From Leptonema illini DSM 21528 (GTDB lineage Bacteria > Spirochaetota > Leptospiria > Leptospirales > Leptonemataceae): a DNA stretch of 64,000 nucleotides. The DNA lies in assembly GCF_000243335.1 (NCBI RefSeq), contig NZ_JH597773.1, positions 2,916,983 through 2,980,982 of the forward strand, written 5' to 3'. This document shows, piece after piece, positions 17,800 through 23,944 of the stretch (positions within the stretch are counted from its first letter, which is position 1; each line of letters begins with the position of its first letter). Position numbers and translations under genes: made by a program. The notes under the pieces were generated by a model. It was not told the DNA's origin. It searched no databases and saw only the letters and a program-made list of their open reading frames with translations.

Positions 17800-17831
17800 A
17801 AAAGAAAAGGCCGGCTTTTGAGGCCGACCTT
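17800..17831 (-). terminator. Rho-independent terminator of the LysM gene
   Basis: On the minus strand, AAGGTCGGC-CTCAAAA-GCCGGCCTT forms a 9-bp stem with one G-U pair, followed by TTCTTTT. It lies 29 nt after the LysM gene stop. Confidence 0.85.
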
Positions 17832-17859
17832 CTCAGTCTGTTTTAACAGTTCCTTTGAA

Positions 17860-18501
17860 TTACTTCGCAGGAATCTTAAGAACATCACCCGGACGGATTT
17901 TATTCCACTGAACCTTCGGGTTTGCCTTCTGGATATCAGCAGCCGGTACTCCGGTTTTCTGAGCGATTTTGCTGAGCAAATCCCCTGCGACAACGGTGTA
18001 GGTCGTCTCAGCGGAAGCAGGCTTTTCCTGTTCTGGCTTAGCTTGCTCGGGTTTGGCGGGTTCCTGCTCTGGCTTTGCCTGCTCGGGTTTCGCAGGTTCT
18101 TGCTGCGGCTTTGCAGGCTCGCTGATAGCCGGCTTCGTCGGAGCCTTATCTTTACCACACTGTCCCTTGATCAGGTAGAACCCGACGATCAGAACGATGG
18201 CAAGGACGGCAATGCCGATCATGCGGAAGCGAGAAGATTCTCCACCCTGCTCTTCCGATGCAGAAGATGCATAGGATACGTTGTCGTCGCGCATCGATGA
18301 GCTGTAGATGTCGCTGTCTTCGTATCTATTTGAAACTTCAGAGTCAAATACGGATGTTTGCAGGGCCTCAAGGCTACGGGTCGACGAGCTGGTCTTCTTC
18401 GCAGCCTTTTTAGTCGACTTTTTGACTGCCTTTTTAGCAGTCTTCTTTGCAGCTTTCTTGGCTGACTTTTTGGCGGATTTCTTGGTGGCCATGTTGCCCA
18501 T
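17860..18501 (-). CDS. LysM membrane protein with histone-H1-like lysine/alanine tail
   Basis: A 213-aa protein with four parts. Residues 7-36 are KKxAKK repeats (KKSAKKAAKK, TAKKAVKKST) like bacterial histone-H1-type tails. Residues 40-92 are Ser/Asp/Glu-rich linker. One membrane helix spans 93-112. Residues 128-162 are Pro/Glu/Lys repeats (EPAKPEQAKPEQ), and a C-terminal LysM domain (168-212: YTVVAGDLLSKIAQKTGV...VLKIP) follows. LysM domains bind peptidoglycan. RFR before the helix favours the N-terminus in the cytoplasm, so the tail would face DNA and the LysM the wall. DNA binding is inferred. A second start at Met4 is possible. Its own terminator follows. Confidence 0.85.
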   Translation of the reverse strand: MGNMATKKSAKKSAKKAAKKTAKKAVKKSTKKAAKKTSSSTRSLEALQTSVFDSEVSNRYEDSDIYSSSMRDDNVSYASSASEEQGGESSRFRMIGIAVLAIVLIVGFYLIKGQCGKDKAPTKPAISEPAKPQQEPAKPEQAKPEQEPAKPEQAKPEQEKPASAETTYTVVAGDLLSKIAQKTGVPAADIQKANPKVQWNKIRPGDVLKIPAK

Positions 18502-18696
18502 TCTGTAAACGATTCGCCGGATTCAAGAATTTTTCCCTCTGTTTTGATAAGAATGCGCTCCGGAAGAAATTTTTTTTCATAACGCCGGCCTGGAAAGGGG
18601 GAATGCTTCCTGTATGTGATTCTCAGAGTGAACCGGTGCCTTGATTGCGCGGCGATTATCAGTTGCCCTGCGCCGTTTCTACATTTTTATGGGATT

Positions 18697-19152
18697 GTGA
18701 ATCGGAAGCTTGCTCTGACCCTGGTCCTCATCCTTGCCGGACTCGGCGGTCTTTACCTCTTCTCGGGCTCGCTCATTCAGGAATCCGTCGTCATCGCCGA
18801 TGCCGACATGATTGCGAGCGATCCGCAACGTTATCAGGACCGTGAGCTTCGTGTTCGCGGTTTTGTGAAGCCCGGCTCCATCGTTCGCACGGCCAACCAG
18901 GCCAGCTTTGTCATCGAACATAACGGCAAAGAGCTGCCTGTCTTCTTTACCGGTCGCACTCAGCTGCCCGATACGTTCGCCGATGCCGCTCCCGTGCGCG
19001 CCGACGGACATCTGGAGAACGGCCAGCTTGTATCGACCCGCGTCGAGGCGAAGTGCGCCTCAAAATACGATGCCGAATATGCCGAAGGCAAGGCGCATCC
19101 GGCGTCTATTTCTCTTGAGTATAACGACTACAAAAAAAATAAAAGCCCCTGA
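18697..19152 (+). CDS. ccmE: Cytochrome c maturation haem chaperone CcmE, CxxxY type
   Basis: A membrane-anchored periplasmic haem chaperone that receives haem from CcmC and passes it to CcmF. Starting at GTG 18697 gives 151 aa: a short basic N-terminus, membrane helix 4-24, and an OB-fold (DRELRVRGFVKPGSI...VEAKCASKYD). The usual covalent haem ligand is a histidine in a KHxxxY motif. Here C120 and Y124 form C-A-S-K-Y, the CxxxY variant known from some archaea and delta-proteobacteria. A longer frame from GTG 18616 adds residues without homology. It starts the ccm cluster and is 11 nt from ccmF. Confidence 0.88.
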   Translation: MNRKLALTLVLILAGLGGLYLFSGSLIQESVVIADADMIASDPQRYQDRELRVRGFVKPGSIVRTANQASFVIEHNGKELPVFFTGRTQLPDTFADAAPVRADGHLENGQLVSTRVEAKCASKYDAEYAEGKAHPASISLEYNDYKKNKSP

Positions 19153-19163
19153 GTGGAGAGAGC

Positions 19164-21742
<2,579 letters not shown>

Positions 21743-21743
<1 letters not shown>

Positions 21744-21892
21744 TGGTCCTCTGGATCGTCATCTTCCTGTTTATTCTGACCGGCGTTCTCGCCGGTCTTC
21801 GATTCCTAAAAAAGAAAGATCCTTTCGGCGGCCTTGATTCAGAGACACAATCGAAGAACGATTCTGCCGGAGATTCCGGAAACCATACATGA
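21743..21892 (+). CDS. Small single-pass membrane protein in the ccm cluster (CcmD-like position)
   Basis: A 49-aa ORF. One N-terminal membrane helix (VLWIVIFLFILTGVLAGL) is followed by LKKKDPFGGLD and an acidic tail. It begins on the last base of the ccmF stop (TGATG) and ends overlapping the next gene as ATGA, so it fits translational coupling on both sides. Size and topology recall CcmD or other small Ccm assembly factors, but the sequence has no family hallmark that I recognise. Confidence 0.65.
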
Positions 21893-23220
21893 CTCAACTG
21901 ATCGGTATTCTCAGCGTTATTGCCATCCTTATTCTTATCGCCTTTCTCTTCTGGCCCGTTCTTCGAGATAGCTCGGGTAACGACTTCTATCGCACAGGCA
22001 TCACGAAGAAGAAAGAACGCCAGACGCGCGAAGAGTTTCTGCTGCGCCGCATCGCCGACCTCGATCTCGATCGCGATAGCGGCAAGCTCAGCGCCGAGGA
22101 ACATGCAGAATTGATCCGCCCGCTTCGCGAAGAGCTTGATGCCGTCGTCGGCGCCGCTCGTGCCGATGCCGAAAGTGCGGATGCTGGCAAAACCGATGGA
22201 CGCACTCGAACGCCCGTAGCATTGCTCTTTCTCTTCGCCGGCATGGCACTGGCACCGGCGCTTCATGCAGCTCCAGTCGCCGTCGAAGGCCGCATCATCA
22301 ACGGAACAACCGGACAGCCGGCTCGCGTAGAGCAGCTTGAGCTTCTGAAGATCCAGGAAGGCATGCAGGTCGTCGAAACGCTAAAAGCGGCCGGGCCGAA
22401 TTTTCGCTTCACACCGATCGAACAGGCCGGAGCGCCGCTGCTTGTGCGGGCGACCTATGCGGGCGATAGCTTCATATCGGTGATCCCACCCGTTGAAAGG
22501 CCCGGACAGGAAGCGCTGCAAACGGACCTCACCGTCTACGAACGCGGAGCTCGCATCGACGATATCGAGTTCCATTCCGGATTGCAGATCTCCAGGCTGC
22601 GAGAAGGCCTCGACGTCACTCTTGTATATGCCATCAACAACAACTCAAAGCCGGGGCGCTCTTTCGACATATCTGATCTGACCTTTCCCGTGCCCGCCGA
22701 CGCAAAAGAGCTGCGCGTCAGCGTCGCCCATCAGTCGGGCGGTATGCCCGTCACTCTCGAACCCGAGACCGTAACTGGCGGCATCCGGCTCAAGCGGGCG
22801 CTACGTCCCGGTATGTCTGAGCTGTCCATACGTTTCGTCACCGATACGCATATCTTCAAAGACCGCGTCGATTTCACGAAGGATCTGCTCGTGAACCGCG
22901 GCGACGGCCGGCCCTTCTTTCGCGTGCTGATCTGGCGACCGGCCGATGCCATCCCCGCAATCACGGGAGGCAATGGAACGGAGCTTGACATCCCGAATCT
23001 TGGCAAGGCCATGCAGGTCGTATACGACGAAGATGAAGTGATCTACGAATTCAAGGCCGGCGGCATCTGGTTTGAGAATCCGATGGCATCGGACGAAAAT
23101 CCGATCTTCGATCACCCCTGGAAAAGCGGCATCGGAGTGCTTCTCGGTCTGACCATTCTGCTGCTCTTTCTCTCCATTCTCACGGGATCGAAGTTCCGAC
23201 TGACGCGCGACGAGAAATAA
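21889..23220 (+). CDS. CcmI-like N-terminus fused to a periplasmic domain protein
   Basis: A 443-aa protein. An N-terminal helix (LIGILSVIAILILIAFLFWPVL) is followed by a cytoplasmic stretch, LLRRIADLDLDRDSGKLSAEEH. This resembles the N-terminal region of CcmI/CycH-like proteins (FDRDxGKLSxEDY). A second hydrophobic segment near residues 112-130 precedes a large periplasmic beta-rich domain (about 132-415), and a C-terminal membrane helix ends at SKFRLTRDEK. It sits between the 49-aa ORF and ccmA. A role in apocytochrome handling is inferred from position. The periplasmic half might instead be a carboxypeptidase-regulatory-like or redox-inactive scaffold domain. Confidence 0.65.
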   Translation: MTQLIGILSVIAILILIAFLFWPVLRDSSGNDFYRTGITKKKERQTREEFLLRRIADLDLDRDSGKLSAEEHAELIRPLREELDAVVGAARADAESADAGKTDGRTRTPVALLFLFAGMALAPALHAAPVAVEGRIINGTTGQPARVEQLELLKIQEGMQVVETLKAAGPNFRFTPIEQAGAPLLVRATYAGDSFISVIPPVERPGQEALQTDLTVYERGARIDDIEFHSGLQISRLREGLDVTLVYAINNNSKPGRSFDISDLTFPVPADAKELRVSVAHQSGGMPVTLEPETVTGGIRLKRALRPGMSELSIRFVTDTHIFKDRVDFTKDLLVNRGDGRPFFRVLIWRPADAIPAITGGNGTELDIPNLGKAMQVVYDEDEVIYEFKAGGIWFENPMASDENPIFDHPWKSGIGVLLGLTILLLFLSILTGSKFRLTRDEK

Positions 23221-23221
23221 G

Positions 23222-23944
23222 ATGCTGCGGCTCGAAAAGCTCAGTCGGGCCTACGGGCATCATACGGTCCTTCATGAGATCGACATCGAGCTGAAAGACG
23301 GCGAGATCGTCTGTGTGATGGGACCGAACGGAGCCGGTAAAACGTCGCTTGTCGAGGCTATCCTTTCACATAACCGTCCGGCCGGCGCCCGGCTTTTCTT
23401 TCACGGCGAAGAGATTCGCGGCATCGAGGCGCATAATCGCTTCCTCTCTCGCTGCGCGTATCTGGGCCACGAACCCGGACTGATGTATGATCTGAGCGCC
23501 CTTGAGAATCTAAAATTCTTCGCCGACTTCCACTGCACGGTCCGCCCGACAGAAGAGAGGCTGCGTGCGTTGCTTGCCGCCGTCGGACTGGAACGTCGAG
23601 CCAATGATGCGGCTCGTATCTTCTCACGCGGAATGCGACAGAGGCTGGGGCTTGCGCGCTGCCTGCTGCATGATCCCGATATGCTCTTTCTTGACGAGCC
23701 GTTAACGGGACTTGATCAGGAAGGCATCAAAAGATTGATCGAACTTCTGCGCCCGGTTCGCGAACGCCGCGCATCCGCCCTTATCATCACGCATGACGAC
23801 GCTCCCTTTCTCGACGTCGCCGACCGCTATCTTTTCATCAAAGACGGTCGGCTTGTCGCCGACATCGAACGGAACCGATACACAGATGCCGCACGACGGC
23901 ATCTGCGTTCGCTTCTCAGTACGGACGATGCGGTCGTCCGCTGA
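23222..23944 (+). CDS. ccmA: ABC transporter ATPase, CcmA-like
   Basis: A 240-aa ATP-binding subunit. Walker A is GPNGAGKT (34-41), the signature region reads FSRGMRQRLGLAR, Walker B is DMLFLDEP, and the switch region is IITHDD. In other bacteria CcmA works with CcmB and CcmC to release holo-CcmE. Neither partner gene is in this window. The start is one base after the previous gene and the 3' end overlaps the convergent pfk gene by 29 bp. Context makes CcmA the best call, but a generic exporter ATPase cannot be excluded. Confidence 0.8.
   Translation: MLRLEKLSRAYGHHTVLHEIDIELKDGEIVCVMGPNGAGKTSLVEAILSHNRPAGARLFFHGEEIRGIEAHNRFLSRCAYLGHEPGLMYDLSALENLKFFADFHCTVRPTEERLRALLAAVGLERRANDAARIFSRGMRQRLGLARCLLHDPDMLFLDEPLTGLDQEGIKRLIELLRPVRERRASALIITHDDAPFLDVADRYLFIKDGRLVADIERNRYTDAARRHLRSLLSTDDAVVR

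Follow-up and report, generated by a model that had tools for sequence, protein, structure and literature searches.

The Chlamydia protein Hc2 carries histone H1-like repeats that bind DNA. AKKA repeats are both necessary and sufficient for DNA binding by HbhA of Mycobacterium tuberculosis, and the AKKA/H1-like repeats of HupB from the same species also bind DNA, yet its RplV, which has AKKA repeats as well, failed to bind DNA and binds 23S rRNA (PMC10665949). Rv3852 ("H-NS") of M. tuberculosis combines H1-like repeats with a transmembrane (TM) anchor and is bound to DNA at the membrane; it affects wall synthesis via Wag31, and without its helix it condenses the nucleoid (PMC8233713). HubP has a periplasmic LysM domain and one TM helix, and its cytoplasmic part acts via ParA1 to position the origin of the chromosome (PMC8789113). 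PhaF and AlgP of Pseudomonas contain H1-like K/A-rich domains and are thought to tether bodies to DNA; AlgP localises to polyphosphate granules, and a fragment of it binds DNA (PMC9239181). The first-pass annotation of the Leptonema illini DNA studied here knew of no described protein with both a lysine-rich tail and a wall-binding end. This claim has to be narrowed, as HubP and Rv3852 each cover half of such a connection. In the open-access literature, searched by title and abstract, no described protein was found in which LysM is joined directly to a lysine-rich or DNA-binding part.

In L. illini 3055T, a 213-codon open reading frame is open at 17860-18501 (-) of the window, by which we mean the whole 64,000-nucleotide stretch analyzed. 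Its translation reads MGNMATKKSAKKSAKKAAKKTAKKAVKKSTKKAAKKTSSS...SSRFRMIGIAVLAIVLIVGFYLIKGQCGKDK...KPEQEPAKPEQ...TYTVVAGDLLSKIAQ...PGDVLKIPAK. The protein probably starts at the second ATG, because all of the aligned relatives begin with MATKK or MAKKK and show no conservation upstream. From the N to the C terminus it comprises a basic tail, a Ser/acid-rich segment, one membrane helix, a flexible linker and a LysM domain (Table 1). The architecture originally read from the DNA (H1-like tail, single helix, Pro/Glu/Lys spacer and LysM) was borne out by sequence, hydropathy and Pfam; tail, helix and LysM are all present in one protein, with the correction that the tail is N-terminal. The helix has a mean Kyte-Doolittle value of 2.57 over 19 residues, and no other peak exceeds 1.6. 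The LysM match to PF01476 (E value of 3.5e-11) scored 43.3 bits, above the gathering cutoff of 20.9. A single-sequence AlphaFold model (pTM of 0.29), to be trusted chiefly for LysM and for a portion of the helix, placed the helix at residues 90 to 113 and gave pLDDT values below 50 for residues 122 to 161. The Ser/acid-rich segment contains an SLxxLxxSVF-like motif that is partly common to the relatives.

Table 1. Positions of the gene, its encoded segments, its neighbors and the other tail sites (window coordinates unless stated otherwise)
Feature	Position	Strand	Basis or remarks
CDS of tail-TM-LysM protein	17860..18492	-	210 aa from probable start MATKK; ORF open from 18501, 213 aa
H1-like basic tail (MATKKSAKKSAKKAAKK...)	18391..18492	-	Within first 40 residues, net +17
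Ser/acid-rich segment, predicted cytoplasmic	18223..18390	-	Most of segment net -7; ends in RFR
Single TM helix MIGIAVLAIVLIVGFYLIK	18166..18222	-	Hydropathy; AlphaFold model
Flexible Pro/Glu/Lys linker, predicted periplasmic	18001..18165	-	Composition; low pLDDT
LysM domain	17869..18000	-	PF01476 match, residues 168-211; LysM chains in PDB
Intrinsic-terminator-like hairpin 3' of gene	17804..17834	-	12 pairs, 7 GC; weak evidence, the scan giving 4 sites vs 2.1 +/- 1.6 expected
ccmE, ccmF, protein without Pfam match, ABC ATPase	18616..23944	+	Pfam, synteny; divergent
Other tail sites, contig C1 (outside window)	near 192k, 330k, 794k, 881k, 1030k, 1478k, 1775k, 2407k, 3097k, 3217k, 3428k, 3912k

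The membrane topology had been argued from the positive-inside rule and an RFR motif. This motif does lie directly before the helix, but the argument is weak: the 15 residues before the helix contain two K/R and the 15 after it contain three, and the flanking charges do not favor the N side. The helix begins about 90 residues into the protein and is therefore predicted to be a signal-anchor, not a cleaved signal peptide. To bind the wall, LysM must lie in the periplasm. Together, the approximately 90-residue N terminus and the LysM domain make an N-in/C-out topology likely.

The nearest functional precedent is Rv3852. Like Rv3852, the Leptonema protein has lysine-rich H1-like repeats together with one TM anchor, and in both the H1/HupB-like K/A repeats lie at the end assigned to the cytoplasm. 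The likeness seen is one of layout, with differences: the TM helix of Rv3852 is C-terminal, no wall-binding domain has been described in it, and its contact with the wall is made via a partner. HbhA, HupB and Hc2 differ from the Leptonema protein in that they have no TM-LysM layout, and PhaF and AlgP have neither LysM nor TM helix, the tethered body in their case being a granule. Membership of the HubP/FimV family was considered and rejected. In HubP, FimV and TspA, LysM precedes the TM helix, and the long, acidic cytoplasmic part contains TPR and reaches the chromosome via ParA1 rather than by a basic tail. In the Leptonema protein, LysM stands at the C terminus, and the basic tail opens the N-terminal region. 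Proteins of the SAG1386/EF1546 family, which are Gram-positive surface-associated LysM proteins, likewise run from a helix through a linker to a C-terminal LysM, and the family model NF042931 matched residues 80 to 210 (E value of 1.4e-15). The match begins after the Leptonema tail, and its 57.8 bits fall below the curated cutoff of 80, so the protein was not assigned to this family either.

We propose a bitopic inner-membrane protein whose first approximately 90 residues would be cytoplasmic and whose one helix would span the membrane. The flexible linker would let LysM bind peptidoglycan, which adjoins the cytoplasmic membrane in these spirochetes; the peptidoglycan of Leptospiraceae is described as associated with that membrane (PMC3746420). 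The H1-like tail would bind DNA non-specifically by charge, and the protein would loosely hold the nucleoid to the wall, much as the nucleoid of M. tuberculosis is held to the membrane by Rv3852, with LysM replacing the partner protein. The conserved Ser/acid-rich segment may be a competitor of DNA for binding to the tail, or it may bind a partner. DNA binding by the tail is plausible by analogy with HbhA, HupB and Rv3852, wall binding would be expected from what is known of the LysM family, and we infer any effect that the protein may have on the nucleoid. That the tail binds DNA and the protein tethers the nucleoid to the wall is our tentative proposal, to which we give somewhat less than an even chance. 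In more general terms, a connector of DNA or another polyanion to the wall is the best reading.

The type of tail is not unique to the LysM protein in this genome. Pattern searching (KKxxKKxxKK) and reading of the open reading frames found H1-like lysine tails on at least 12 other L. illini proteins: a PUR-like protein and a putative helix-turn-helix protein (both by eye, with no Pfam match), an ExoIII-family nuclease, RsfS, two small free basic proteins, a peroxiredoxin, a CxxCxxCC metal-chelating protein, an alpha/beta hydrolase, a GlpD-like oxidoreductase, a methyltransferase and a DUF1569 protein. Some of these tails are N-terminal and some C-terminal, many are on enzymes, and none of the other tailed proteins was seen to have the TM-LysM layout. 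Of the 43 pattern matches, 37 are on the minus strand of the largest contig, C1 (14 of the 17 sites). About half of the other tailed proteins have no obvious nucleic-acid role; therefore, the tail alone is no indicator of DNA. With the same topology, the tail could bind another polyanion, such as acidic inner-membrane phospholipids, ribosomes or RNA, or polyphosphate granules, and the protein would then organize the membrane or hold such bodies, not DNA, at the wall. GlpD-like enzymes are membrane-associated as a class, and the presence of such tails on RsfS (a ribosome factor), the GlpD-like oxidoreductase and others fits this explanation, as do the granule-bound AlgP with its H1-like repeats (PMC9239181) and the 23S rRNA-binding RplV (PMC10665949). 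However, such repeats bind DNA in several tested proteins (HupB, HbhA and the AlgP fragment), and no linkage to polyphosphate or lipid genes was seen. We regard a polyanion other than DNA as a real possibility, if a somewhat unlikely one.

Full-length orthologs with the whole layout were found by protein and then profile search in 15 of the 22 genomes of the family, L. illini included; several of the family genomes without a match are incomplete, and absence there is not firm. Outside the family, profile search found no ortholog either in the order's sister family or in the remaining families of the class; the matches there were weak and partial or extended over no more than LysM or the C-terminal half. 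A collection search with the L. illini protein alone, its own genome excluded, returned no relatives, and a query taken from genome G001 returned two relatives in metagenome-assembled spirochete genomes and one LysM-only match. The gene adjoins ccmE-ccmF of the cytochrome c maturation (ccm) operon in 10 of 14 loci (13 relatives and the window) and is immediately adjacent and divergent to the ccm genes in nine of them. In genus g4 the ccm operon is present but the gene is missing beside it, nor did a full-length copy turn up at another site; therefore, the protein is not essential to the family. No DNA-related genes were seen among the neighbors.

The basic tail is kept in all 15 orthologs, with a net charge of +8 to +19 over 40 residues in every ortholog measured, and in two genomes (G006 and G005) the charge is retained even though the KKxAKK rhythm has decayed. 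An origin of the tail by slippage of a 12-bp DNA repeat was rejected: self-identity of the tail DNA at lag 12 was 0.593, not in excess of the 0.595 +/- 0.032 expected for the same amino acids with random synonymous codons. These results bear on the explanation that the tail is a low-complexity decoration which the lineage adds to many proteins and which has no specific role here. The number of other tailed proteins in the genome favors this idea, and the tails of PrxQ and RsfS are inconstant from one relative to the next, a long tail being present in 4 of 20 genomes for PrxQ and 1 of 19 for RsfS and mostly absent. Unlike those two, the LysM protein has its tail throughout, and both the charge kept after loss of the repeat pattern and the missing repeat excess at the DNA level speak against decoration; we consider mere decoration improbable.

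Substitution ratios were compared between the segments in two genera. In genus g2 (four genomes), pN/pS was 0.30 for the linker, 0.18 for LysM and 0.04 for the tail (6 nonsynonymous versus 34 synonymous pairwise differences), the last being a noisy ratio, as the 5' half also shows little synonymous divergence (pS of 0.23 versus 0.7) and recombination is possible. In genus g3 (three genomes), the values were 0.36 for the tail, 0.33 for LysM and 0.75 for the linker. By these ratios, the tail ranks among the more constrained parts of the protein. Synonymous divergence was itself uneven in the g2 orthologs (L055, L063, L064 and L065), with pS about threefold lower in the tail, middle segment and TM helix than in the linker and LysM; recombination or an extra nucleotide constraint may account for this.

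The Ser/acid-rich middle segment had a pN/pS of 0.08 in genus g2, nearly as constrained as the tail. This is what might be expected of a scaffold like FtsN, RodZ or HubP, in which the cytoplasmic segment (tail plus Ser/acid motif) would bind a cytoskeletal or division protein, LysM would position it on the wall and DNA would be uninvolved or incidental. The partly shared SVF-like motif points the same way, as do relatives in other spirochete families that add a conserved domain of about 85 residues, also cytoplasmic, before the basic segment. In genus g3, however, the middle segment evolves like the remainder of the protein, and none of the loci examined showed a recognizable link to genes for division or cell shape (Pfam on ten neighbors only). 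A scaffold of this kind is, in our view, unlikely.

The relatives just mentioned came from a profile search that covered 296 genomes from across the phylum, in which 13 of the best matches outside the family were read. Since the search profile includes the tail, the matches are biased to tailed proteins, and what is known of them is likeness of layout, not orthology with the Leptonema group. Nine of the 13 have a basic segment, helix and LysM (L181-L184, L186, L187 and L189-L191), and six of those nine carry the domain of about 85 residues ahead of the basic segment; in L185 the domain occurs without a strong basic segment. The domain (L181, L182, L184, L185, L187, L189 and L191) follows the pattern YYKKIKGKxYDxxLL...VKGxGDGRISLxDA...IEKxTxxYIRDNYxFT...WFRxEIRKWAA, and the examples scanned gave neither a Pfam match nor a PDB match that rose above noise. 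One distant relative had a weak HC2 match (E value of 0.0016, below the cutoff). A conserved spirochete family that joins DNA to peptidoglycan in one polypeptide, with versions in several families and one with an extra cytoplasmic domain, is possible but rather doubtful.

What keeps the nucleoid in place with respect to the envelope is not settled, particularly for thin helical spirochetes. A nucleoid-wall tether of the kind proposed, in which one protein grips DNA as well as the wall, would, if true, answer this very simply. Should the ligand be something other than DNA, the conservation of the tail and the constraint on it still point to a real link between cytoplasm and wall.
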